IMG/VR virus record: IMGVR_UViG_3300014501_000065
Coordinates: 1 to 25,544 of that record
Reading direction: 5' to 3' (one strand)
Length of the DNA: 25,544 nt
DNA from: a virus
Numbering within the stretch: position 1 is the stretch's first letter; the number at the start of each line of letters is the position of its first letter. Of this stretch, positions 2,561 to 25,544 are shown in pieces. The translations under genes were made by a program, and so were the position numbers. The notes under the pieces were generated by a model, which was not told the DNA's origin, searched no databases, and saw only the letters and a program-made list of their open reading frames with translations.

Positions 2561-3013
2561 TTAGAACGGAATTTCATCGTCCATGTCCGCCGATGACTTG
2601 CGGGCTACTGGAGCGGCAGCAGCAGCCGGACTTGGCTCCTCGGACTCGCCGCTAGGTTGGGCGGCATCCTTCCAAGACAGCTTCGTGATCCGGCCACCAA
2701 AGGACTTTACCACGACCTCCGTCGAATATCGGTCCGCCCCAGACTGGTCTTTCCACTTTCGCGTCTGCAATTGGCCTTCGACGTAAACCTGGTCGCCCTT
2801 TTTACAGTACTGCTCGACGAACGTGACCAGATTGTCGTTGAAAATCACAACCTTATGCCACTCCGTCTTCTCCTTTTTCTCGCCACTCCCCTTGTCGCGC
2901 CAGTTCTCCGATGTCGCCACCGAAAAATAGGCCATCGTGCGCCCGTCAGGCAAATGCTTGACCTCCGCATTACCTCCAAGCCGACCCACCAAAATCACCC
3001 TGTTCACCGACAT
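2561..3013 (-). CDS. ssb: Single-stranded DNA-binding protein
   Basis: A 150-residue leftward gene. Start at ATG 3011-3013 (MSVNRVILVGRLGG) with AGGAGG five bases upstream; the earlier start at 3058 lacks this. The N-terminal ~105 residues are the OB-fold of bacterial-type SSB: NRVILVGRLG, the conserved TEWHKVVIFN strand, and KKGDQVYVEGQLQTRKW then DRYSTEVVV. After a Pro/Ala/Ser-rich linker the chain ends DMDDEIPF, the acidic tip used to recruit replication and repair partners. It coats single-stranded DNA during replication or recombination in the cytoplasm. It opens the leftward operon from the divergent control region. Confidence 0.97.
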   Translation of the reverse strand: MSVNRVILVGRLGGNAEVKHLPDGRTMAYFSVATSENWRDKGSGEKKEKTEWHKVVIFNDNLVTFVEQYCKKGDQVYVEGQLQTRKWKDQSGADRYSTEVVVKSFGGRITKLSWKDAAQPSGESEEPSPAAAAAPVARKSSADMDDEIPF

Positions 3014-3041
3014 GCAGTCCTCCTGCTCGCCAAGTTTTGAT

Positions 3042-3070
3042 TTGACAACGCCGGACATTTTTCGCTAGAT
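3042..3070 (+). promoter_or_regulatory. Possible plus-strand promoter ahead of a short transcript
   Basis: Perfect -35 TTGACA at 3042-3047 with a 17-base spacer to CTAGAT at 3065-3070. It points right, away from ssb, towards the terminator at 3188-3213. The -10 is only moderate. Confidence 0.3.
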
Positions 3071-3082
3071 TAGTAACGAAGT

Positions 3083-3107
3083 CAATACGTAAGTAAGTAT
3101 CGTATTG
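3083..3107. repeat. Inverted repeat, candidate operator
   Basis: Arms CAATACG (3083-3089) and CGTATTG (3101-3107) are perfect and flank an 11-base centre (taagtaagtat). The left arm overlaps a minus-strand TTGACT (3080-3085). A dimeric regulator acting on ssb transcription would fit, but this is inference. Confidence 0.4.
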
Positions 3108-3187
3108 TCTGTACTACTAGTATATAGATTTGATTAGTAAACCCATTCCAAAAAGTAGTATTCGTCCCAAAATTGTTACATTTAACT

Positions 3188-3213
3188 GCCCGGCCTTAGA
3201 GCCGGGCTTTAAT
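3188..3213 (+). terminator. Rho-independent terminator
   Basis: Perfect 7-bp stem gcccggc (3188-3194) / gccgggc (3201-3207) with a 6-base loop, followed on the plus strand by tttaat. The T-tract is short, so strength is moderate. It insulates the 3266 promoter from rightward transcription that starts further left. Confidence 0.6.
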
Positions 3214-3265
3214 CACCATCATCGATAGACAAGTCGGACAAACTGGTAAAACCAAGGCAATCCTC

Positions 3266-3294
3266 TTGTCTCTTGTCGATTATCCGCTTAAAAT
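3266..3294 (+). promoter_or_regulatory. Sigma70-like promoter for the rightward virion module
   Basis: TTGTCT (3266-3271), 17-base spacer, TAAAAT (3289-3294), the latter matching five of six consensus -10 bases. The predicted start is near 3301, giving a ~47-base leader before the ATG at 3348. TTGTCCG repeats begin just downstream. Confidence 0.5.
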
Positions 3295-3310
3295 AAGGGT
3301 TGCTACCGGA

Positions 3311-3326
3311 TTGTCCGATTTGTCCG
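3311..3326 (+). repeat. Paired TTGTCCG direct repeats downstream of promoter
   Basis: TTGTCCG occurs at 3311-3317 and 3320-3326 (9-base period), about +10 to +26 relative to the predicted start. An inverted copy, CGGACAA, lies at 3235-3241 upstream of the promoter. The arrangement brackets the promoter and could be a regulator-binding set. Confidence 0.35.
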
Positions 3327-3347
3327 GCTGCATGAACGGAGGCAGTA

Positions 3348-3656
3348 ATGCCAGCACGTCCACCGATTATGATCCGCGATCCGGAAACGGGCGAAATGCG
3401 GCCTCGTGGCGAGATACCAAAGCCGCCGCCAGCCGTTTCCGACGCCCCGCCGACGTACCCTCTCGATCAAGTGCTCGACCGTGCCCGCCTTGACGACTAC
3501 CTGATTGACGCGCTCGAAGCTGGTGGGCCGGATGGCTTCGCGAGAGCTCTTGCCTACCTCCACCGCCAGATCACGGAATCGATCTTGTGTGTACTGGTCG
3601 ATGGCGAAGACCTCGGCGCCGATGGGCTGGATGACACGATCTACAACCACGGGTGA
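3348..3656 (+). CDS. Hypothetical protein upstream of terminase (102 aa)
   Basis: Starts at ATG 3348 with GGAGG 7 bases upstream. The N-terminal ~40 residues are proline-rich and probably disordered (RDPETGEMRPRGEIPKPPP). From ~40 there is an acidic helical part (PLDQVLDRARLDDYLIDALE, then FARALAYLHRQITESILCVL). It is the first gene of the rightward unit and precedes the small terminase by ~106 bases. A packaging accessory or late regulator would fit its position, but no family is recognised. Confidence 0.65.
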   Translation: MPARPPIMIRDPETGEMRPRGEIPKPPPAVSDAPPTYPLDQVLDRARLDDYLIDALEAGGPDGFARALAYLHRQITESILCVLVDGEDLGADGLDDTIYNHG

Positions 3657-10045: not shown

Positions 10046-11245
10046 ATGCCATTGCTTAGCGGTTCCGGCAAAGAAACGATCAGCGCCAATATCGCGACCG
10101 AAGTCAGGGCCGGCAAAGACCCTAAGCAGGCGGCTGCCATTGCCTATAGCAAGGCGCGCGGTGACATGCTGGATGGCATAGGCCGGGCGATAAACGCTGC
10201 GGCGGACAGCGTGCGGATTCTGGATTGCCGCGCGGACGCATGGTTTTCCAAGGGCACAGAGATAGCCGAGGATGCCGGCCGGATGACGCGCCGGGCCCAA
10301 GACGGGGCTGTGCTGGCGCAACGGCTGATCGATCGCGCCAAGGACGTGCGCGTCGGGCTGGCAAAGGCTGCGCGCGCCGCACGCGCTAAGGGCATGGCGT
10401 TTGAAGGCCTGCCGGAAAGCTCGCTAGCGGACGCGGAGAAGCGTGCCAGCCACGCATCCACAGACTACAGGCTGGCGCTTCAGAGCATCTCTCAGGGCAG
10501 CGCCGATGAAGTGCGCCGCTGGCTGGCGGAGGGTGCCGGCGATCTTCGCACTGCGGAAAGCCGGATTTCAGAGGTTGAACGCCAGGCATGGTCGGCTATA
10601 GCCAAGGTCGGCCCGCAGAAGCGGGGCCTTGATCTGCTGATTAGCAATGACGATGCGGATGAGGATACCCCGATTCCGTCACCGTCTGGCACGCCAGAGC
10701 AGCGCAACGCCATCGCGCTTTACCACAAGAAGGTCCAACGTGGAGAGATTAAGAACACCAAGGAAAACTGGACTAAGTACGCCAAAGAACACGGCTTGAA
10801 CGACGATGCGGAGATGGACGCCATGCCTGAGACGGGGATCAAAGCCTTAGCGGACTGCATAGGCGCGGCCGCTGATGCGATCGCCGGGCTGAGCAAGCGG
10901 GTTGACGCCTATGCCGCGCGCCGAGCGGATGACCATCGCGTGATCGGCGGGGTAGGATTTCAGGCAGTAGATGCGTTGTGCGATCTTCGGTGTGATGAAT
11001 GGTCGGAGGAGGCGCGGGAAGCTGCCTTAAAGGCACGCCAAGCCAATACGCCGGCAAAAGCTGACCCATCGAAACAGACGAAGATCTCTCGCGGTGAGTT
11101 GGATAAAAAACTAGGAGGCATGTCCACCGAAAAGCTCAACGGTGCACTGAACTCTGGTGGACTTGATAAAGGCGTCAAGAAAGCCATCGAGGAGGAGCTC
11201 GACAAACGAACCAAGAAAAATATTGAGGAATGGCGCAGCAAGTGA
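10046..11245 (+). CDS. Head-region protein with conserved phage N-terminal motif (399 aa)
   Basis: Starts MPLLSGSGKETISANI six bases after the previous stop; the ribosome site is weak. The N-terminal ~40 residues (GSGKETISANIATEV-RAGKDPKQAAAIAYSKAR) match a short phage module usually seen as a small separate protein near head genes. Here it is fused to a ~360-residue, mostly helical, charged region with two Ala-rich heptad-like blocks (~45-190 and ~265-330) and a Lys-rich end (~345-399, ISRGELDKKLGGMSTEKLN). It directly precedes the prohead NUDIX/DUF2213 gene and overlaps it. It may be an assembly chaperone or internal head protein. Confidence 0.65.
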   Translation: MPLLSGSGKETISANIATEVRAGKDPKQAAAIAYSKARGDMLDGIGRAINAAADSVRILDCRADAWFSKGTEIAEDAGRMTRRAQDGAVLAQRLIDRAKDVRVGLAKAARAARAKGMAFEGLPESSLADAEKRASHASTDYRLALQSISQGSADEVRRWLAEGAGDLRTAESRISEVERQAWSAIAKVGPQKRGLDLLISNDDADEDTPIPSPSGTPEQRNAIALYHKKVQRGEIKNTKENWTKYAKEHGLNDDAEMDAMPETGIKALADCIGAAADAIAGLSKRVDAYAARRADDHRVIGGVGFQAVDALCDLRCDEWSEEAREAALKARQANTPAKADPSKQTKISRGELDKKLGGMSTEKLNGALNSGGLDKGVKKAIEEELDKRTKKNIEEWRSK

Positions 11246-13182
11246 CCAAGGCGGCCGGGCTACTTTTTATCTCTCCGAAGGGAAACGCACTTTTCCTGCG
11301 CCGCACCGCGACTGCAAACGATTGCCCCTCATGCTGGGATTTTCCCGGCGGCGGGCAAGAAGGCACCGAATCCGCAGAGCAAACCGCCGTTCGAGAAGCG
11401 AAAGAGGAAATAGGCTTTCTCCCGGATGGCGTCCGCAAGCTTCACACCAGAACCAAGAGCTCCACGACCACATTGGGCGTGGCGGACCCCGGCGCGCCGG
11501 CTGTTTCATTCCCTGTTTCGGCTGGCGCGCCGGCGGCTTCTCCCGTGGCCCCGTCGCTGCAACCGCAGCCAGCCATGCCACCGGACATCGACTTTTCCAC
11601 TTTTCGCCAGTACGTCGACGAAGAATTCACCCCTACGTTGAATGATGAGCATGACGGCTTCGCGTGGGCACCTATCCCCACGCCGCCGCAGCCGTTGCAC
11701 CCCGGATGCCGGATCGCGCTCGAGCGCATCGGCATGAACGAACTGGACGTGGCGCGCGCCATCGCGGACGGACGGCTTACGTCTCCACAGCAGTACGAGA
11801 ACATTTGGCTGTTCGCGATTCGCATTACCGGAACGAGTGCGTCCTATCGGCCCAAGCTCGATGAATTCGTGCATCGCAGCCCGGAAAATTACCTGAATGA
11901 GGAATTCTTGGCGCGGTGCAACGGCCTGCCAATTATCCTGCGCCATCCTGATACGGCGATCCTGAATTCGGAGGAATTTCAGAAGCGTATTGTCGGCACA
12001 GTCTTTTTACCGTACATTGCCGGAGACGAGGTGTGGGCCGTTACCAAAATCTACGTCGACGGCGCCGCCCAAATAATGCAGGAGCAGGACCTTTCGACAT
12101 CCCCCGGCGTCAATTTCGCGGACTTCACGGTTAATGCGCGGCTTACGCTTGAGGACGGGAAAAAGGTTCTAATCGAGGGCGACCCTAGTCTTATCGACCA
12201 CGTAGCGATCTGCGAGTTGGGTGTGTGGGACAAGGGCGGCGACCCTTCAGGCATTCGATCCGAAGCTAGAGAGGATTCAGCGATGACGGCGGAAGAGCAG
12301 GCGGCAGCCGACAAGGCCAAAAAGGACGCTGCGGAGGCCGAAGAGAAGGCCAAGAAGGACGCCGCTGAAGCGGAGGAAAAGAAAGCCAAGGCGGACGCCG
12401 CCGAAAAGGAGCGCACCGACGCCGATGCTGGTTCGGCACTGGACAAGACGCTTTCGCACATCGCCGACAGCGTTAAGGCCATGACCGACGCCGTCGGCAA
12501 TCTCGGCAAGCGCATGGACGCCATCGAGGGCACGGGGAAGGAAAAAGCTCCCCCGTTCAAGGCCGATGACGCCGAGAAGGAAAAGGAAGAAAAAGAAAAG
12601 GCCGAAGAGAAGACCAAGGCGGACAAGGCCAAGAAGGACGCCGACGACAAGGAGAAAGAAAAGGAAAAGGCCATGGCCGATTCCGTCGACATCACCAAGC
12701 GCATTGCCGAAGTCGAGAAGGCCGTGAAAGAGCATGGCTCTCGGATCGTGCAAATCTCCGACGATGACCATCAGCTACTCGCCGACGCCTGGTCGCGCGC
12801 TGATTCCATCTTCAGCGCATTGGGCAAGCAGACGCCCCGCGCCATGCCCGGCGAAACGGCATCCGGCTATGAGCGCAGGACCGCGCGCCTGCTTAAAGAA
12901 CACAGCCCGACGTGGCAAAAGGCGGACGTGAACAAGGCCTTCGCGGATGACGCCTCATTCGGCATCGTGCGCGATCAGATCTTCAGCGAGGCTATGCAGA
13001 CTGCCCGCAATCCGGTGAACGTGCCGGCGGGCCAACTGCGCATGATCGAGCGCAAGCAGGACGGTCACACCATTCGGGAATTCGTCGGCGATCCGCGTTC
13101 GTGGATGAATCCCATGGCCGGCCCGGTGCAATTGCGTGGTGAGGGCAATTGGCTGCACGCCAATCTCGGCAAGAGCAACTGA
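11230..13182 (+). CDS. NUDIX-DUF2213 prohead protein with scaffold-like C-terminus
   Basis: 650 residues. Residues ~1-165 form a NUDIX hydrolase-like domain. It has a complete Nudix box G-x5-E-x7-REUxEExGU at 41-63 (ends REAKEEIGF) and the later LNDEHDGFAW strand (137-146), split by a Pro/Ala-rich insert (~88-118). Residues ~165-345 are DUF2213-like (ILRHPDTAILNSEEF, GTVFLPYIAGDEVWAV, DLSTSPGVNF), a group held to be phage prohead proteases or precursors. From ~352 the chain is Lys/Glu/Ala-rich coiled coil, scaffold-like, ending in a folded tail (~510-650). Start ATG 11230 has GAGGA touching it; GTG 11242 overlaps the previous stop (GTGA) and is a real alternative. The gene immediately precedes the capsid genes, as expected for protease/scaffold. 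Confidence 0.8.
   Translation: MAQQVTKAAGLLFISPKGNALFLRRTATANDCPSCWDFPGGGQEGTESAEQTAVREAKEEIGFLPDGVRKLHTRTKSSTTTLGVADPGAPAVSFPVSAGAPAASPVAPSLQPQPAMPPDIDFSTFRQYVDEEFTPTLNDEHDGFAWAPIPTPPQPLHPGCRIALERIGMNELDVARAIADGRLTSPQQYENIWLFAIRITGTSASYRPKLDEFVHRSPENYLNEEFLARCNGLPIILRHPDTAILNSEEFQKRIVGTVFLPYIAGDEVWAVTKIYVDGAAQIMQEQDLSTSPGVNFADFTVNARLTLEDGKKVLIEGDPSLIDHVAICELGVWDKGGDPSGIRSEAREDSAMTAEEQAAADKAKKDAAEAEEKAKKDAAEAEEKKAKADAAEKERTDADAGSALDKTLSHIADSVKAMTDAVGNLGKRMDAIEGTGKEKAPPFKADDAEKEKEEKEKAEEKTKADKAKKDADDKEKEKEKAMADSVDITKRIAEVEKAVKEHGSRIVQISDDDHQLLADAWSRADSIFSALGKQTPRAMPGETASGYERRTARLLKEHSPTWQKADVNKAFADDASFGIVRDQIFSEAMQTARNPVNVPAGQLRMIERKQDGHTIREFVGDPRSWMNPMAGPVQLRGEGNWLHANLGKSN
12283..13182 (+). 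CDS. Nested scaffold protein from an internal start
   Basis: In-frame ATG at codon 352 of the 11230 gene has a textbook ribosome site, AGAGAGGA (12268-12275), 7 bases upstream. Translation would give a 299-residue protein: ~155 residues of Lys/Ala/Glu/Asp-rich coiled coil (starts MTAEEQAAADKAKK) plus the folded C-terminal domain that could bind capsid. Domain order and layout mirror lambda C/Nu3, where the scaffold is made from an internal start inside the protease gene. This is inferred from the sequence. Confidence 0.55.
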   Translation: MTAEEQAAADKAKKDAAEAEEKAKKDAAEAEEKKAKADAAEKERTDADAGSALDKTLSHIADSVKAMTDAVGNLGKRMDAIEGTGKEKAPPFKADDAEKEKEEKEKAEEKTKADKAKKDADDKEKEKEKAMADSVDITKRIAEVEKAVKEHGSRIVQISDDDHQLLADAWSRADSIFSALGKQTPRAMPGETASGYERRTARLLKEHSPTWQKADVNKAFADDASFGIVRDQIFSEAMQTARNPVNVPAGQLRMIERKQDGHTIREFVGDPRSWMNPMAGPVQLRGEGNWLHANLGKSN

Positions 13183-16987: not shown

Positions 16988-17439
16988 TGCCGACATTACA
17001 CCTCGGCGTCCTCGACGTTCCCTACCAAAACGCTCCGTCCAAGCGGCAGCGCAAGGTGCGCGCAAATACGGTGACGACGGGCGACGTCGCGGGTTGGCTG
17101 GAAAACCGCTACCACATCCTCGAGAATTTCTACGAGATCCACAAAGAGGATATTGCGGGCGATCTTGAGGGTTCCCTATCCGGCGCGCTCGAGACTTTCC
17201 TGTTAGGCGGCCCACTGACGGTTGATGCGTTCGGCACGGCGACGTCCAAGATCGAGGACCGCATGAAGCAGTTTCTCGCGCAGGGCGAGATGGAGAAGAT
17301 CGGCTATCCGGGCGTGCCGACGCAGGCGGCGCTGGAAGGCATAAATCATCGCTTCAAGAAATCCAAAACCGGGCGACGCCGCCCAAGTTTTGTGGACACC
17401 GGATTATATAGCGCAAGTCTGAAATCATGGATCGATTGA
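16987..17439 (+). CDS. Tail completion / neck protein (HK97 gp10-like position)
   Basis: 150 residues; ATG 16987 overlaps the previous stop (TGATG), so no separate ribosome site is needed. Contains a helical N-terminal half (VAGWLENRYHILENFYEI, then DLEGSLSGALETFL) and ends with RRRPSFVDTGLYSASLKSWI, a D-T-G-x-Y/L-x-x-S ending common in neck and tail-completion proteins. Its end overlaps the GIY-YIG endonuclease start by 13 bases. Function inferred from motif and place. Confidence 0.6.
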   Translation: MPTLHLGVLDVPYQNAPSKRQRKVRANTVTTGDVAGWLENRYHILENFYEIHKEDIAGDLEGSLSGALETFLLGGPLTVDAFGTATSKIEDRMKQFLAQGEMEKIGYPGVPTQAALEGINHRFKKSKTGRRRPSFVDTGLYSASLKSWID

Positions 17440-18392
17440 ATTACGTCTACATTGTTTTCCGGCCGGATGGCTCTCTGCTCTATGTGGGCAAGGGCACCGG
17501 GGAACGGTGGAAGCGCCACAAGTCTAGAGCGTCAAGCAATGCGCATTATGCCAACGTGCTTAAACAGGCCGGCGGCACGCTGCCGGTGTCTATTATCGCC
17601 AGCGGGTTAAGTGAACCGGAATCATTTGCTCTTGAGGGCATACTTACTGAAAGCATAGGCATAGAATCGGAAGGCGGCCCGCTGGTAAATTGTGGGCATG
17701 GTGGGCGTGGTGGCCCGGTAGGCGTAAAGCGCTCATCTGAATGGCGCGCACACAGGCGGCTTAAGGCAATAGAGCTATGGTGTGATGAAAGCTACCGGGC
17801 GAAAATGCTGCGCGCTGATCGTGGCCGATCCGGTGGCAGGGCGCCACGCAATCCCGCCTTCAAGGCTGCTATGTCGGCAAGGCTTCAGGGCAATACTCAT
17901 ACGTTAGGCTATAAGCACACGGATGAGACACGGGCTAAGATGAGCCGCGCCAGAAAGGGCGTGCCCAAGAAGCCTGAACACGTTGTAAATATGAGTGAAG
18001 CCGCAAAGAGAGGCTGGATCAAAAGACGGCTTGGTTCCATTGTTTCTGAAGAAACACGTGCAAAAATCCGAATCGCCATGTGCGGGCGAATTGTCTCGGA
18101 AGAGACTCGCGCCAAATTATCAGCAGCCAAAAAGGGATGGAAGCCGCCGCCTCTATCTCCCGAGCATCAGGCTAAACTCACATTCGCCAGTCATCGACAT
18201 ACTGCTGAGGCGAAGGAAAAAGTAGCCGCTTCTAAGCGAGGCAAGCCGCTGTCGCCTGCGCATCGTGCGGCTATATCTGCCGCTAAGATAGGCAAGCCAG
18301 GGCATTCCCATACGGCGGAGAGCCGGGCAAAAATAGCGGCAGCAGCCTTAGCCCGCCACGCTCGACGTTTGGGACAGAGAGAAGCAAGATGA
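17427..18392 (+). CDS. GIY-YIG homing endonuclease with NUMOD3 repeats
   Basis: 321 residues. Residues 7-33 show the GIY-YIG core (YVYIVFRPDGSLLYVGKG, then R and H at ERWKRHK). From ~165 to 300 the chain has repeated NUMOD3 DNA-binding units: KHTDETRAKMSRARKG, VSEETRAKIRIAMCG, VSEETRAKLSAAKKG, LSPAHRAAISAAKIGK and HTAESRAKIAAAALAR. Such enzymes cut an empty target site and drive copying of their own gene. ATG 17427 lies inside the previous gene and the stop overlaps the next ATG (ATGA), so it is inserted seamlessly between two virion genes without disrupting them. Its codon use is more A/T-rich than the neighbours, a sign of transfer. Confidence 0.9.
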   Translation: MDRLNYVYIVFRPDGSLLYVGKGTGERWKRHKSRASSNAHYANVLKQAGGTLPVSIIASGLSEPESFALEGILTESIGIESEGGPLVNCGHGGRGGPVGVKRSSEWRAHRRLKAIELWCDESYRAKMLRADRGRSGGRAPRNPAFKAAMSARLQGNTHTLGYKHTDETRAKMSRARKGVPKKPEHVVNMSEAAKRGWIKRRLGSIVSEETRAKIRIAMCGRIVSEETRAKLSAAKKGWKPPPLSPEHQAKLTFASHRHTAEAKEKVAASKRGKPLSPAHRAAISAAKIGKPGHSHTAESRAKIAAAALARHARRLGQREAR

Positions 18393-19368: not shown

Positions 19369-19403
19369 GAAGGCCCGGACCGTTTGCGCGGTCTCGGACC
19401 TTC
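19369..19403 (+). other. Second long imperfect hairpin
   Basis: gaagg-cccg-gaccg (19369-19382) pairs imperfectly with cggtctcggaccttc (19389-19403) around a tttgcg loop. It lacks a T-tract. It may be a 5' element of the HNH transcript or a mobile-element boundary. Confidence 0.4.
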
Positions 19404-19431
19404 TGAGCATCAAACCTGTGGAGCAGGATCA

Positions 19432-20100
19432 ATGCCTTTCGAGATTATAAGCCGCGCCGATGCGCTGGCAAAAGGCCTCAAACAATATTTTACCGGCAAG
19501 CCGTGTAAGCACGGCCATATCGCGATACGATTGATTGGTGGTCCGTGCATTGAATGCCATCGAATACATACAGCGAGCTACCGAAAAGCAAATCGCGAAA
19601 AGCACAATTCGTGGGGCAAGGAAAATCCGGAACGTAGACGGATTTCTCAGCAAAGATATTTAGAATCCCACCCAGAGCGTCGCCGGAAATCACAGTTAGA
19701 TTGGGTTGACCGCAATAGAGAGCAATTCCGTGAATATCAGCGCGGTCTTAGAAAGCGCCTTCGCCGGGATGATCCGGATTGGCGGCTCCGTCAAAATTTG
19801 CGGGGTCGGCTTCGAAAGGCCCTGGTCCGCGCCAGCGCTGCTAAATCCGGAAAAACCTTCGATCTAGTCGGTTGTACCGTTCCAGAATTGAAGGCTCATC
19901 TTAAACGCCAGTTTTCCGTCGGCATGACGGAGGAAAACTACGGTCATGGTCCTAACAAATGGAATGTCGATCATAGGATTCCGTGTGCCGCCTTTGATTT
20001 GACCGATCCTGAACAGCAGCGATTATGCTTCCACTTTTCAAACCTTCAGCCAATGTGGCATTATCTCAATGTAGCTAAAGGAGCGCGGGTCAATGCCTAG
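19432..20100 (+). CDS. HNH homing-type endonuclease
   Basis: 222 residues from ATG 19432, with AGGA 3-4 bases and GGAG about 10 bases upstream; the frame opens at 19384, but MPFEIISRADALAKGLK is the natural start. Near the N terminus is K-P-C-K-H-G-H with C-I-E-C-H (residues ~23-45), a Cys/His cluster likely to bind zinc. The middle is a long basic helical region (RRKSQLDWVDRNREQ, RKRLRRDD). The C terminus has the HNH nuclease: KWNVDHRIPCAAFDLTDPEQ, CFHFSNLQPMWHYLN, N-x-x-K-G. This is a common phage free-standing HNH enzyme. Its A/T-richer codons and own terminator-flanked position suggest mobility. It overlaps the next gene by 8 bases. Confidence 0.85.
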   Translation: MPFEIISRADALAKGLKQYFTGKPCKHGHIAIRLIGGPCIECHRIHTASYRKANREKHNSWGKENPERRRISQQRYLESHPERRRKSQLDWVDRNREQFREYQRGLRKRLRRDDPDWRLRQNLRGRLRKALVRASAAKSGKTFDLVGCTVPELKAHLKRQFSVGMTEENYGHGPNKWNVDHRIPCAAFDLTDPEQQRLCFHFSNLQPMWHYLNVAKGARVNA

Positions 20101-20392
20101 CCTTAATCGCTTCAAGCCCGGCTCGATTGGGCAATATTTTGAAGGTCCGCAATGGGACGGAAAATGCGTTGAGGTTTATAGTTCCGTCTGCGCGCACTGC
20201 CAGCATCCGACCGAATTTCTCAGCATGAAGAAAATGCGAGATTACGTCGATATTTGTCGGGGCTGTATGAGGTTGATCTGTGAGAAATGTGCGGCCGGAC
20301 CGTGCAGGCCTTTCGAGCAGGAAGCGGAGCGCCAGGAGCGTGAAGCCCGGCTTCAAGCGCGGGTGGAGGCGCAGGGCTGGCGCTGCTACTAG
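20093..20392 (+). CDS. Cysteine-rich zinc-type phage protein (99 aa)
   Basis: ATG 20093 with AAGGAG about 9 bases upstream, inside the HNH gene. A C-x-x-C pair (VCAHCQH) and then CRGCMRLICEKCAAGPC give many cysteines, a likely two-zinc knuckle (residues ~31-66). A charged helical C terminus follows (EQEAERQEREARLQARVEAQG). Similar small proteins occur in alphaproteobacterial phages near structural genes. DNA, RNA or protein binding is possible; no specific function known. Confidence 0.7.
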   Translation: MPSLNRFKPGSIGQYFEGPQWDGKCVEVYSSVCAHCQHPTEFLSMKKMRDYVDICRGCMRLICEKCAAGPCRPFEQEAERQEREARLQARVEAQGWRCY

Positions 20393-20432: not shown

Positions 20433-20957
20433 ATGCCATGCAATTCGTGCGCGCACTGGATCAGGGCGCGAAAGACGATCTACGAAAGCGGCGATGAGGT
20501 CTTCAACTTCCAGGCGCCGGAGGGGAAGGGGCATTGCGACGCGATCGACCTCGACACAGATCCCGAGTTCGGCTGCACGAAGTTCGATGCCGAGAAGCCA
20601 TATCTCGGCGTGGACGATCAACCGCACGTCATCGTTGCCCACAAGAGCGGCGCGCCTTGGCACTACAGCGTTTCAGGCCCGTGCCCGGATTGCGCCGGCA
20701 AGGGCAACGCTGGCGATACTGGATGCCACCGCTGCGCCGGGACGGGCAAGGTCCGATATTACGACGACGGCTATATCGGCGAGGAACGCACGCGGCTGCA
20801 TCCGAAGGAACGGGAGCAGGCGGGCAAGCCCAAATGCGCGGATTGCGGCCGTGAGGTAGAGCGGGCCTGGAAGGTCTGCCCGGCGTGCGGTCACAAGTTG
20901 GATGCCGAATCGCCCATTGAGGTCATCAAGGACGCCGACGCGGGGCTTCCTATCTAG
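20433..20957 (+). CDS. DnaJ-type zinc-finger protein (174 aa)
   Basis: Start at ATG 20433 (MPCNSCAHWIRARK) with GGGGAG about 7 bases upstream. The longer frame from 20280 is a shadow of the preceding gene. It has an N-terminal C-x-x-C (residues 3-6), then a DnaJ-like CxxCxGxG pair at ~86-105 (CPDCAGKGNAGDTGC-HRCAGTGKV) and a C-terminal zinc ribbon (KCADCGREVERAWKVCPACG, ~140-159). DnaJ cysteine-rich domains bind unfolded or partner proteins; without a J domain this would be a binding or assembly factor. Likely chaperone-type role for tail or fibre proteins is inference. Confidence 0.7.
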   Translation: MPCNSCAHWIRARKTIYESGDEVFNFQAPEGKGHCDAIDLDTDPEFGCTKFDAEKPYLGVDDQPHVIVAHKSGAPWHYSVSGPCPDCAGKGNAGDTGCHRCAGTGKVRYYDDGYIGEERTRLHPKEREQAGKPKCADCGREVERAWKVCPACGHKLDAESPIEVIKDADAGLPI

Positions 20958-20989: not shown

Positions 20990-23356
20990 ATGAGAAGCGA
21001 GACCTTCTGGAAGTGGTTTGAGGAAGAGGCGCGTCCGAAACTGGCCGGGCGCGCTGGCACATTCGCCAAAATGTTCGAGCATCTCGACAAGCTCGACCGG
21101 CCGGTGACGATAGTGGAGACGGGCTGCGCGCGCCGCGATCCGGCGATTGAGGAATCTTGGAAGCTGGACGGGTGCAGCACGTTTTTGTTCGACCGCTATG
21201 TCGGTTGCGCCGCTCCCGAATCGCGGGTTTTCTCCGTTGACCTTGATCGCGAGGCGGTAAGGGCGTGTTGCGGTCGTGTGAGCTTGAGCTTCCAGACGAC
21301 GGTGACGGCGCAGGACAGCGTTGATTATCTCAAGGCTCTAGCGGTGCCGCACTGGTTCAAGGCTGATCTGCTCTACCTCGACTCCTTCGACTACGTCGCA
21401 TGGAATCCGCTGCCCAGCGCAATGCACCATCACGCGGAGCTTATGGCGGCGATGCCCATGATCCGGCCGGACACGCTGGTCGTGGTCGACGATTCGCCGG
21501 CCATGGTGGACGACCAGAACCGGCTTGAGGTAGGCGGCAAGGGCACCATCGTCGCCAAGCACATGCTGCTCTGCGCCGCTGACATGGAATTCTGCGAGTA
21601 TCAAACCGGTTGGACCAACGTAGGGCCAGCGCGCCATCGAAGCGACGAGGATTTAGACCATCTGGTAGCGCGTGCGCGCGGACACGTCGAAGGCAACCGG
21701 CTTGTGGCCGCAGAGGGCATTTACCGGCTGATCCTCGGAATCACGACGCCGCCGGTAAAGCCGCATTCGCGGGTGGCGCATGGGGAGGCGTGCGACTTTT
21801 ACGCCCGGCTGGCGGTGCAGCGCATGAAGTTCGGCACGGCCGCGGATTGGTGGCGCGAGGCGCTCTCCGCTGACCCTATGGCGACGGACTACCGGCTGGA
21901 TCTGATCGTGAATGCCCTTATGCCCATGGGCAACGTGAAGCTGGCACGGGTGGAGGGCGAGCGGGCTACCAAGATAGCGCCGGATTATTGGCGAACGTGG
22001 CACGTCTTCGGCGGAGTGCTGCACATGCTCAACGAGAGCGAGGAGGCGACGGCGGCCTATGATCGGGAGATAGCGGCGGCGCCGGAAGAGCCGGACGGGG
22101 CGCTCGACCGCATCAGCATAGCGATCGAGGTTGGCGACTATGACAAGGCGCGGGATTTTATCCCGGGCGTCATGGCGACGGATCGCCGCGGCGACGCTCT
22201 ACATTGCCTCGCGATGATCGCCCACCGTGAGCATAAGCACGAGGAAGCGATCGTATTGTTTGACGAAGCGATAGCGTGGCAGTGCAGCGACATTCCGATG
22301 GCGCACTGGAACAAGTCGCTCTCGCTGCACGCCATAGGGCGCTACCGGGAGGGCTGGGAAGAGCACACTTGGCGGGCCAAGGCTTTCAAGACGCCCATGC
22401 TCTCCCTGCCGCCGCGGCGCTTTACGGTGCCGATGTGGGACGGCACGCAGCCGGTGACGAAGGAAGACGGCACGCGCGCCGTGGTGCATGTCCACGCTGA
22501 GGCGGGGTACGGCGACAACATCGCCATGCTGCGCTTCCTGCCGCTGATCGAGGAAATGGGCTACGCGGTGCATTATGAGGCGTCGCCGGGCATGGCGGAG
22601 ATGGCGGCCTACAGCTTTCCCACCGTCACCGTAATGCCCAAGGCGCCGGACTATCCGGGCGCGCTCGGGCTCAAGCCGTTCGATTATCACATTCCGATCG
22701 GGGAGCTTCCGCACGTCTTCAAGATCGAGGTCGATTCGGTCCCGTGGCGCGGGCCGTACATCAAGGCGGACCCGATCTTGATCGATAAATGGCACGCACG
22801 GACTTGGCCGCGGCGCTGGCATAGGAATACGCGCCTGATCGGCTTGTGCTGGTCGGCCGGCATCCGCGAGGGAATCCATCTTCGCGAATACGGAATGAGC
22901 AAGTCGGTTCGGTTCGAGGACTTCCGCCCTCTTTTTGGCTGGCCTCATACGCAAATACTAAGCAGTCTAGCCCAACAGCCGGATATTTTCGTTTCGCTTC
23001 AGGTCGGCCCAGAACGAACCGAACGCGCCGAACCGGTCATTGATATCCTCCCCGACCGTCCGTCATGGGCAGAGACGGCGGCGCTGGTTGCGAACCTAGA
23101 CCTCGTGATTACGGTCGACACGGCGGTTGCTCACCTCGCCGGCGCGATGGGCAAGCCGGTGTGGGTCATCAGCCGTAAGGACGGCATGTCGTGGCACTTC
23201 ATGTGCGAACGGCCGGGCGCGCCTTGGAACGAGCGCAGTCCGTGGTATCCTTCCGCCAGAGTTTTTCGCCAGCGCGAATTTGATACCCCACACTTTTGGG
23301 ATGACGTTATATCTGATATAGGCATGGAATTGCGGTCAATGTCGGCCGCAGCATGA
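20990..23356 (+). CDS. Methyltransferase-like / TPR / glycosyltransferase three-domain protein
   Basis: 788 residues with three parts. (1) Residues ~1-215: class I methyltransferase-like fold (TIVETGCARRD at 40-50 as motif I, FSVDLD 81-86, ADLLYLDSFDY 125-135, LVVVDDSP 163-170), closest in style to Methyltransf_24. (2) Residues ~220-465: helical TPR-like repeats (e.g. EEATAAYDREIAAAPEEPDG, HEEAIVLFDEAIAW). (3) Residues ~495-788: GT9/heptosyltransferase-like glycosyltransferase of the bacterial TPR-GT type (HAEAGYGDNIAMLRFLPL at 502-519, IGLCWSAG 617-624, FVSLQVGP 667-674, VITVDTAVAHLAGAMGKPVW 706-725, PWYPSARVFRQ 751-761). It would transfer a sugar from a nucleotide donor; the TPR part may bind the protein acceptor. 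Its place before fibre and adhesin genes suggests virion or surface modification. Substrate unknown. Confidence 0.85.
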   Translation: MRSETFWKWFEEEARPKLAGRAGTFAKMFEHLDKLDRPVTIVETGCARRDPAIEESWKLDGCSTFLFDRYVGCAAPESRVFSVDLDREAVRACCGRVSLSFQTTVTAQDSVDYLKALAVPHWFKADLLYLDSFDYVAWNPLPSAMHHHAELMAAMPMIRPDTLVVVDDSPAMVDDQNRLEVGGKGTIVAKHMLLCAADMEFCEYQTGWTNVGPARHRSDEDLDHLVARARGHVEGNRLVAAEGIYRLILGITTPPVKPHSRVAHGEACDFYARLAVQRMKFGTAADWWREALSADPMATDYRLDLIVNALMPMGNVKLARVEGERATKIAPDYWRTWHVFGGVLHMLNESEEATAAYDREIAAAPEEPDGALDRISIAIEVGDYDKARDFIPGVMATDRRGDALHCLAMIAHREHKHEEAIVLFDEAIAWQCSDIPMAHWNKSLSLHAIGRYREGWEEHTWRAKAFKTPMLSLPPRRFTVPMWDGTQPVTKEDGTRAVVHVHAEAGYGDNIAMLRFLPLIEEMGYAVHYEASPGMAEMAAYSFPTVTVMPKAPDYPGALGLKPFDYHIPIGELPHVFKIEVDSVPWRGPYIKADPILIDKWHARTWPRRWHRNTRLIGLCWSAGIREGIHLREYGMSKSVRFEDFRPLFGWPHTQILSSLAQQPDIFVSLQVGPERTERAEPVIDILPDRPSWAETAALVANLDLVITVDTAVAHLAGAMGKPVWVISRKDGMSWHFMCERPGAPWNERSPWYPSARVFRQREFDTPHFWDDVISDIGMELRSMSAAA

Positions 23357-23368
23357 AAGAAAAATTAT

Positions 23369-24676
23369 ATGTTTTCATGCGAGCCGTTGTTGACCCAGTA
23401 CATTGCACCGCCGCCGTTATGGCTACCGCAGATCGGCGGGACGGTACCATCGCTGTTCGCGGACTTCACCACCGAAGGCGGTAACGATTACTACTGGTAC
23501 AACGGCGCGCAATATGCAGGCTACGCTGCATGGCTCTTTGCCCTGTCGGGGACATTCTCTAGGTCATCCGCAGCCTATTACACCAACGCATCAGGACTTC
23601 TTGCATCGGCAGGGAATAACGTCCTGCGGTTTGATTACAATCCGTCAACGCTGGTCTCGAATGGCGTCTTGCTAGAGGGGACGAGTACTAACCATTCTCT
23701 CAATTCCGGAAATGCACTGTCGTGGACGACACTCGATGGCGCGACGAGAGCTGGTGGCGTCAGCGATCCAACTGGCGGAACTGCTGGCGTAACTATTACC
23801 TCAGCAGCAGGGACGGGGTTGCACGACATAAGAGTTGGTAGCATAGGCTCCCAAACGAGCGGAAACACCGTCACGCATAGCTTTTTCGTAGCACGGGGAA
23901 CGGCTCCCTACGTGTATGTTGGGGACTACGCCCAGGCGAACTTTCCTGGGATTACTTTGAGGTGGTCAGACCTTTCCATTTCAACAAACGGCATACAGAG
24001 CGCAACCGGAGCGGTATCGCCCACGGCGTGGGCCGGGTGGTATCGACTGAGCATTACTTTTGTATTGGACACGGCTAGCTCAAGCCCAGTTGTAGGGCCT
24101 GCGGTCGCATCTGCGGCTTCCATCGGAAATAATAGTAACGCCTATACGGCGGCGGGCACCGAGACGGTGAACGTCTGGGGCGCGCAAGGCGCAGAAACCC
24201 TCCCCTTCGCCTCCTCCTACATCCAGACGACATCGAGCACGGCAAGCCGGAGCGCGGATGGTCTGTATGTTCCGTGGACCGCCGCCACATTTGCGGCGCT
24301 GCTCAAGTCGATCAATCAGGGAACCATTACAAACGCACGCCTGCTCGATACCGGCACCAACGGATTGCTTTATCAGACCGCCGGGCCAGATGTGACCACC
24401 AACAACGGCTCGCAGACGCTGGCGGCCGGCGTCAACGCATGGGGGTCTGCCAATAAGCTTGTCGTCGGAGGTTCCCCCGGCGGTCGCGTGCTATCGGCCA
24501 ACGGCAATGTGGCGCAGACCGATGCCAATGCGCTGGTCGCCTCGGCCGGGACCAATATGTACCTCGGTGCGTCCTCCGATGGCAGCAAGCCATCCTACGG
24601 GGATGTAGAGACGTTCGGTCTGTGGTCGATCGCGCCGACAGCCGGTCAGGCGGCAACCTTGAGCACACTGCCATGA
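23369..24676 (+). CDS. Fibre/spike-like protein with carbohydrate-binding domain (435 aa)
   Basis: ATG 23369, 12 bases after the glycosyltransferase stop; the ribosome site is weak (AAAGAAAAA). Residues ~85-110 contain NGVLLEGTSTNHSLNSGNAL, the 'L-x-E-G-x-x-T-N-x-x-x-x-S' signature of phage head-spike/fibre carbohydrate-binding domains with a concanavalin-like fold. A long beta-rich part follows, including WYRLSITFVLDTASSSPV and ETVNVWGAQGAETLPFASSY with a conserved G-A-Q. It is rich in Ser, Thr, Gly and Asn, suiting glycosylation. Probable role: receptor or polysaccharide binding at the tail tip or fibre. Its stop overlaps the next start (ATGA). Confidence 0.75.
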   Translation: MFSCEPLLTQYIAPPPLWLPQIGGTVPSLFADFTTEGGNDYYWYNGAQYAGYAAWLFALSGTFSRSSAAYYTNASGLLASAGNNVLRFDYNPSTLVSNGVLLEGTSTNHSLNSGNALSWTTLDGATRAGGVSDPTGGTAGVTITSAAGTGLHDIRVGSIGSQTSGNTVTHSFFVARGTAPYVYVGDYAQANFPGITLRWSDLSISTNGIQSATGAVSPTAWAGWYRLSITFVLDTASSSPVVGPAVASAASIGNNSNAYTAAGTETVNVWGAQGAETLPFASSYIQTTSSTASRSADGLYVPWTAATFAALLKSINQGTITNARLLDTGTNGLLYQTAGPDVTTNNGSQTLAAGVNAWGSANKLVVGGSPGGRVLSANGNVAQTDANALVASAGTNMYLGASSDGSKPSYGDVETFGLWSIAPTAGQAATLSTLP

Positions 24677-25119: not shown

Positions 25120-25544
25120 ATGCCCGTGATTTTTCTAACGGGGGCGGGCAACTTTACCGTTCCGGACGACTGGAATTCTAACGCGAACACGATCGAGAGC
25201 CTGTCTGGCGCTGGATCTGGTGCGGCAATGGGCGGAGCCGGCGGCGGCGCGGCTTACGCCAAGGCCGTGAACATCGCTCTGACGCCCGGCGCTTTGATAG
25301 CTTTCAGCGCCGGAGCTGCGGCTAATGACACTTGGTTCAATGGATCGGCCGTCATCGGCTCAACTTGCGGCGCGCCTGCCGGCATCAGCGGATCGACCAC
25401 TGTAGGCGGCCTCGGCGGCGCGGCATCAGGTTGCTATGGGGGCATTGGCGGGGGAACCGCCAACCCTGGTGTGCCCTATGCTTATTCGGGCGGCCTTGGG
25501 GGCAGTCTTTCAACAGACGGGGGCGGCGGGGGCGGCGGGGGCGG
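25120..25544 (+). CDS. Glycine-rich tail adhesin, C-terminus beyond window
   Basis: ATG 25120 with AAGGA about 10 bases upstream; open to the window end (141 codons seen). Starts MPVIFLTGAGNFTVPDDW, the T-G-x-G-x-F-T-V-P-x-D/N-W motif that opens many phage fibre/glycine-rich domains. It then has long Gly-rich loops (GAGSGAAMGGAGGGAA, GGIGGGTANPG) and ends in a run of Gly codons from a ggggg(c) tract. Poly-glycine loops of this kind form host-binding faces in some phage adhesins. Likely host-range determinant. Confidence 0.7.
   Translation, partial: MPVIFLTGAGNFTVPDDWNSNANTIESLSGAGSGAAMGGAGGGAAYAKAVNIALTPGALIAFSAGAAANDTWFNGSAVIGSTCGAPAGISGSTTVGGLGGAASGCYGGIGGGTANPGVPYAYSGGLGGSLSTDGGGGGGGG

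Follow-up and report, generated by a model that had tools for sequence, protein, structure and literature searches.

The window, by which we mean the whole 25,544-nt stretch of viral DNA analysed here, encodes in one frame a methyltransferase (MT), a TPR solenoid and a glycosyltransferase (GT), and lies within a family of loci in which domains, conserved residues, a conserved four-gene cassette and a constant pairing of GT and methyltransferase were all established by computation. The best overall explanation, to which we give a probability of roughly 0.6, is a cytoplasmic enzyme of two reactions that puts a methylated sugar on a virion protein, most likely the ANYE protein encoded upstream (Table 1). 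Phage virion glycosylation and TPR-GTs are already known; the MT fusion and the cassette appear to be undescribed, and we found no account of either in the literature searched.

Table 1. Features of the enzyme, its cassette and the adjoining genes in the window
Feature	Position	Strand	Basis or remark
ANYE protein, 158 aa	18826..19302	+	44-91% identical orthologues in 32 IMG/VR contigs
Endonuclease VII/HNH-type homing endonuclease-like gene between ANYE and ZN1	19384..20100	+	phrog_1035, E 4e-21
ZN1, small Cys-rich protein (zinc-binding type), 99 aa, CxHC...CRGCM...CxxC	20093..20392	+	same place in nearly all cassettes
ZN2, Cys-rich protein, 174 aa, DnaJ-like CxxCxGxG and C-terminal zinc ribbon	20433..20957	+	alignment
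MT-TPR-GT fusion enzyme, 788 aa	20990..23356	+	single uninterrupted frame, ATG at 20990 to stop at 23356
Class I SAM methyltransferase domain, residues 1-215 (also ~1-212)	20990..21634	+	model, Foldseek, invariant residues
Methyltransferase domain, residues of note: E43-T44-G45, D84, D109, D131, H146, D167-D168			
TPR solenoid, all-helical, residues ~216-465	21635..22384	+	Pfam, PDB, model
GT-B/GT9-like glycosyltransferase domain, residues ~470-788	22385..23353	+	Glyco_transf_9 in 12/12 orthologues
GT-B/GT9-like domain, motifs: E504-x-G-x-G-D509 and D710-T711...H715			
Tail protein (fibre-like), variable neighbour outside the constant cassette	23369..24676	+	phrog_5939, E 7e-30
Gly-rich protein, 28% Gly, cut by window end, variable neighbour	25120..25544	+	

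An earlier note on this DNA had read the frame as a methyltransferase, TPR repeats and a GT9-type C-terminus, a reading borne out by Pfam, the orthologues, AlphaFold and Foldseek; the Pfam search and the AlphaFold model of positions 20990-23356 recovered both a methyltransferase and a GT fold. In the window enzyme itself the Pfam model Methyltransf_24 matches weakly (E 0.025 at full length, 0.0037 for the domain alone; score 18.5, below the cut-off of 26.3), and the assignment holds nonetheless because the same model is matched by its relatives, at E<0.1 by 40 of the 42 homologous domains (the best E being 6.8e-9) and at E<0.01 by nine of the 12 full-length orthologues. Built on the 42-sequence alignment, the AlphaFold model of the domain (pLDDT 93.2, pTM 0.91) resembles COMT-type O-methyltransferases (Foldseek E 1.4e-6, TM 0.5-0.6), and the features of a class I O-methyltransferase are present, namely a Rossmann-type SAM fold, a glycine motif, an acidic residue after strand 2 and metal-site acidic residues. 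Ten residues (E43, T44, G45, D131, H146, E150, D167, D168, G183 and K184) are invariant among the 42 homologues, and residue 84 is Asp in 39 and Glu in three. A profile from three sequences gave no useful PDB match; with all 42, D131 aligned, in a weak PDB match, onto the LDS Asp of a family-3 O-methyltransferase. In several phages, stand-alone MT relatives are surrounded by GT2, GT11, GT4 and nucleotide-sugar genes; in others they occur near DNA-metabolism genes (exonuclease). This mixed tally was taken with no background control, and the exonuclease neighbours mean that the substrate class of the MT is not fixed by its relatives.

Several Pfam TPR models match residues 331-457 of the enzyme and up to 11 of the 12 full-length orthologues; this part also matches consensus-TPR structures in the PDB, and its helix pairs are present in the AlphaFold model. 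The solenoid stands directly before the GT-B domain, as in OGT- and FlmG-type enzymes (Pfam, AlphaFold, Foldseek). Glyco_transf_9 scores 25.3 bits on the window enzyme against a curated Pfam cut-off of 22, a match that spans only a C-terminal motif of ~33 residues (692-724), and is matched by all 12 full-length orthologues at E<0.01; a heptosyltransferase I model also matches (NCBIfam/Pfam searches). Since a GT profile found no significant homologue in the PDB, homology to heptosyltransferases by sequence being insignificant there, the GT9 assignment rests on Pfam and the fold. E504, G506, G508, D509, D710, T711 and H715 are invariant across 12 fusions. Two other memberships were rejected: GT41, of which there was no model among the Pfam/NCBIfam matches, GT9 and heptosyltransferase I matching instead; and the TibC/AAH-type BAHT family, as the GT part has only C620 and C739 and the N-terminal part is the MT plus helices. 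For the full-length model (pLDDT 83.6; pTM 0.65, so that the mutual placement of the domains is not readable from it) Foldseek places SPINDLY and O-GlcNAc transferases first (E 3e-10), at a global TM of just ~0.35, and the likeness to protein glycosyltransferases pointed out earlier is supported.

That methylation is part of the function is most strongly indicated by the presence of a methyltransferase beside or within the TPR-GT in all 27 cassettes, the window's included, by two unrelated routes. An MT of the enzyme's own family is fused in 20 of the 26 further cassettes (21 of 27 with the window). In the remaining six, which have no fused MT, the METHYLTRANSFERASE replacement is an FkbM-type methyltransferase (PF05050, confirmed in all six), encoded upstream within the cassette and in most of them immediately preceding the TPR-GT, whose start codon overlaps the FkbM-type stop in L166 and L168. 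FkbM-type methyltransferases are an O-methyltransferase family. The pairing recurs outside the cassette: in three contigs (L042, L068 and L096) TPR-GT and MT are distinct genes of a single run, and in Synechococcus phage BUCT-ZZ01 a TPR-GT encoded next to tail-fibre and BNR genes carries a methyltransferase-like part at its C-terminus. This persistence of the pairing, fused, as neighbours and with an unrelated MT substituted, supports the suggestion that MT and GT act on one product. L173 and L174 carry one further methyltransferase-like gene, and L190 has a different N-terminal domain with a putative methyltransferase-like motif, by sequence reading. A 255-aa gene between the TPR-GT and MT genes of L096 (5075-5842), its ends overlapping theirs, may be a third partner.

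The same MT-TPR-GT fusion occurs in 22 viral records, the window and L095 included, at 45-60% identity to the window enzyme where measured; scans of IMG/VR yielded, apart from the window, 11 contigs that carry the fusion in full (45-51% identical over full length), and the nearest relative, L164, is 59-60% identical. Because named phages match either MT or TPR-GT alone (23-36% identity), and bacterial genomes offer TPR-GTs, mostly ~30% identical, whose matched stretches never take in the MT, the fusion is phage-specific in the material searched. A midpoint-rooted TPR-GT tree, in which L190 forms a long branch, places all 22 fused rows (window, L095 and 20 others) on one side of a branch with support 91/97, not starred, and is compatible with a single fusion event within a group otherwise using FkbM. 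In L095/L194 the fusion runs across contig ends, accompanied only by distant ANYE and ZN1 copies, both downstream, and ZN2 was not found in the 7.9 kb preceding it; L095, its cassette not being intact, was omitted from the cassette count.

When the window's neighbouring genes were compared by phmmer with the fusion contigs, ANYE, ZN1 and ZN2 were found in almost every one, and the fibre, poly-Gly gene, capsid gene and others were unmatched. A scan with ANYE gave six contigs with distant copies in addition to the 32 bearing orthologues. Among those 32, a TPR-GT lies downstream of ANYE in 26 (the enzymes of L180 and L181 are identical), five stop before the enzyme's expected place or just past its start, and in L189 ANYE is present with the enzyme undetected in a 47.6-kb contig, so that ANYE does not strictly need the enzyme. 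The full ANYE-ZN1-ZN2-enzyme cassette is thus found in 26 contigs beyond the window, ZN2 being unfound by search only in L190. An in-frame enzyme start overlaps the ZN2 stop in 14 of 20 fused relatives, and the two genes are 32 bp apart in the window; here the genes share a strand, the gaps around the enzyme are 12-32 bp, there is no excess of terminator-like sites, and a transcription unit shared with the neighbours, as previously proposed, is plausible.

ANYE drew no noteworthy match from Pfam, PHROGs, NCBIfam or the PDB, and neither ANYE nor ZN2 has any match among 50,697 named phage records. ANYE is better conserved than the enzyme (90.5% identical in L164), and its gene often follows the major capsid gene at a distance of a few kb, a position that makes it a candidate virion protein; in L189 the ANYE orthologue (3051-3533) directly precedes scaffold-like and major head protein (phrog_9953) genes. 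ZN2 has weak DnaJ_CXXCXGXG and zinc-ribbon matches, and ZN1 and ZN2 may be chaperones or adaptors. A second homing-endonuclease-like gene (17427-18392, GIY-YIG/NUMOD3) lies on the other side of ANYE from the one at 19384-20100, the two flanking it; a homologue of the latter occupies the same place in L090/L167, and L175 also has one.

The activity, donor sugar, reaction order, target and benefit to the phage that we infer would fit together as follows. Enzymes in which TPR repeats precede a GT-B domain, such as OGT, SPINDLY and FlmG, glycosylate proteins; this indicates a protein substrate, which the TPR solenoid would grip as it does in O-GlcNAc transferase and in FlmG of Caulobacter. The GT9-like domain would move a sugar from a host nucleotide-sugar donor onto a side chain, Asp509 probably serving as the base; its G-D motif suggests that this residue would be the counterpart of the catalytic Asp of TibC. 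The fused O-methyltransferase, of the metal-dependent type (D131, D167, D168), would cap a sugar hydroxyl with a methyl group from S-adenosylmethionine, either before or after sugar transfer; the transferred sugar is the most likely acceptor, given that an FkbM-type enzyme can fill the role and that MT relatives lie amid glycan genes. Constantly co-encoded, near the capsid gene and better conserved than the enzyme, ANYE is the best candidate substrate; the fibre or other virion proteins expressed alongside could be targets in its place or in addition, and constant adjacency would not in itself prove ANYE to be the substrate. The phage might gain in adsorption, particle stability or shielding.

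The earlier note had looked downstream for the target, to a carbohydrate-binding fibre and a poly-Gly adhesin. The enzyme gene does precede a fibre-like gene, which starts 12 bp after it, and a Gly-rich one, but its constant partners are the three upstream genes, whereas those downstream vary, and no domain match backs 'carbohydrate-binding' for the fibre or 'adhesin' for the Gly-rich frame. By BLAST, just one other cassette contig, L166, has a match to the window fibre (there also phrog_5939), and a poly-Gly gene falls within the downstream stretch examined in nine of 26 cassette loci. Adjacency therefore does not support either protein as target across the 26 related cassettes, and, ANYE, ZN1 and ZN2 being nearly always kept while the downstream genes vary, a constant co-encoded protein is the better substrate candidate. 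Specific glycosylation of the downstream fibre or Gly-rich protein, with ANYE merely a linked gene, would accord with the fibre-like genes that follow the enzyme in many cassettes, their ends sometimes touching or overlapping, and with the cyanophage TPR-GTs that adjoin tail-fibre genes; we nevertheless consider it unlikely, as conservation across the locus is lowest in the downstream gene, and L164 keeps its closely similar ANYE yet has a downstream gene different from the window's.

Modification of a glycan on the host surface (LPS core, capsule or O-antigen), also raised earlier, would change adsorption or superinfection, the GT9 domain acting like an LPS heptosyltransferase and the MT capping the chain. 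GT9 relatives do include LPS heptosyltransferases, and free-standing MT relatives do occur in nucleotide-sugar clusters, but a TPR solenoid indicates a protein substrate (PMC7591256), the gene is fixed in a cassette with ANYE near capsid genes, among the structural genes of phages from several capsid families, and we noticed none of the partners of serotype conversion (flippase, lipid-linked GT) in the cassettes, all of which makes this reading improbable. We think it slightly less probable again that MT and GT act on the same protein at separate sites, the MT methylating a side chain or terminus and not the sugar: the class I fold carries no sugar-specific signature, and the sugar O-methyltransferase MycE stands just at rank 44 among the best 50 Foldseek matches of the MT model, but FkbM-type methyltransferases substitute in the same cassette and the MT family has glycan-gene neighbours in other phages. 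To action on DNA, yielding a hypermodified base with a sugar and a methyl group, we give very little credence. Phage glycosyltransferases are known to modify DNA (PMC12619734), and some MT relatives lie near exonuclease genes; the TPR-GT architecture, however, is that of protein glycosyltransferases, the gene is positioned among structural genes, and base-modifying genes were not noticed in the cassettes.

Compared two by two, the cassette contigs had on average 0.70 of their cassette genes similar by BLAST, versus 0.05 of their other genes, both estimates applying within the stretches examined and to mechanically picked ORFs. Only one of 22 cassette contigs, L164, has matches to the terminase and capsid gene of the window, and the capsid genes of ANYE-bearing phages belong to PHROG families 264, 9953 and, weakly, 371, so that the cassette looks like a moving unit. 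We tentatively raise the possibility, with doubt somewhat the stronger, that the four genes form a self-contained, horizontally moving module for dressing virions, in which ANYE, two Cys-rich helpers and an enzyme coating ANYE with an O-methylated sugar pass among phages of differing capsids and fibres. Phage particles are seldom regarded as glycoproteins, and the unbroken pairing of TPR-GT and methyltransferase, together with the differing capsid genes, suggests that methyl-capped virion sugars could be a general, transferable trait. The small expressible set, one enzyme and one short candidate substrate, makes direct testing feasible, and the enzyme is a possible single-chain tool for the production of methylated glycoproteins.

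Other parts of the material also drew attention. In the head-gene region of the window, a 650-aa frame (11230-13182) is an unusual fusion of a Nudix hydrolase-like part at the N-terminus (phrog_1198, E 2e-9) with a large remainder that matches phrog_6216 (E 4e-130). Pentapeptide-like repeats at the left end (1-260) are cut by the contig end, and the minus strand at 2561-3058 encodes, by its sequence, a probable single-stranded DNA-binding protein with an acidic DDEIPF tail. In L007 (Marine virus AG-345-E08) a TPR-GT appears amid RCC1-like repeat, oxygenase-like and sulfotransferase-like genes, and the locus, read in the same way, resembles a broader protein-decoration locus.

Among known systems, the cyanophages S-SRM01 and BUCT-ZZ01 and the uncultured podovirus ctDrO704 have a TPR-GT near tail-fibre or capsid genes, as here, but at ~20-30% identity and without the N-terminal MT of the window's family; ANYE and ZN2 were unmatched in the collection that holds them. 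In Che8-type mycobacteriophages, phage glycosyltransferases have been linked to glycans on capsid and tail proteins (Freeman et al. 2023, as cited in PMC11256854 and PMC12619734); these are different phages from the window's, and the likeness lies at the level of phage-encoded enzymes linked to virion glycans. TibC and AAH are, as the window enzyme would be, GT-B protein glycosyltransferases with a catalytic Asp, theirs acting on adhesins, and in TibC the Asp is the catalytic base (PMC4358343); TibC, however, has a beta-barrel at its N-terminus and an iron finger of four Cys, where the window enzyme has MT and TPR parts and two Cys in the GT. O-GlcNAc transferase and SPINDLY (GT41), the top Foldseek matches of the full model, share the order of TPR solenoid and GT-B catalytic part, but at 12% identity, and the window GT is GT9 by Pfam, with an added methyltransferase. 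FlmG of Caulobacter crescentus is a soluble TPR-GT that glycosylates flagellins via its TPR domain (PMC7591256, eLife 2020). It is bacterial, has no fused methyltransferase, and its target is flagellin and its donor pseudaminic acid; the likeness is one of architecture, a single soluble protein in which a substrate-binding TPR part precedes a GT-B domain, and, as predicted for the window enzyme, of setting, the proteins of a surface structure being modified in the cytoplasm before assembly.
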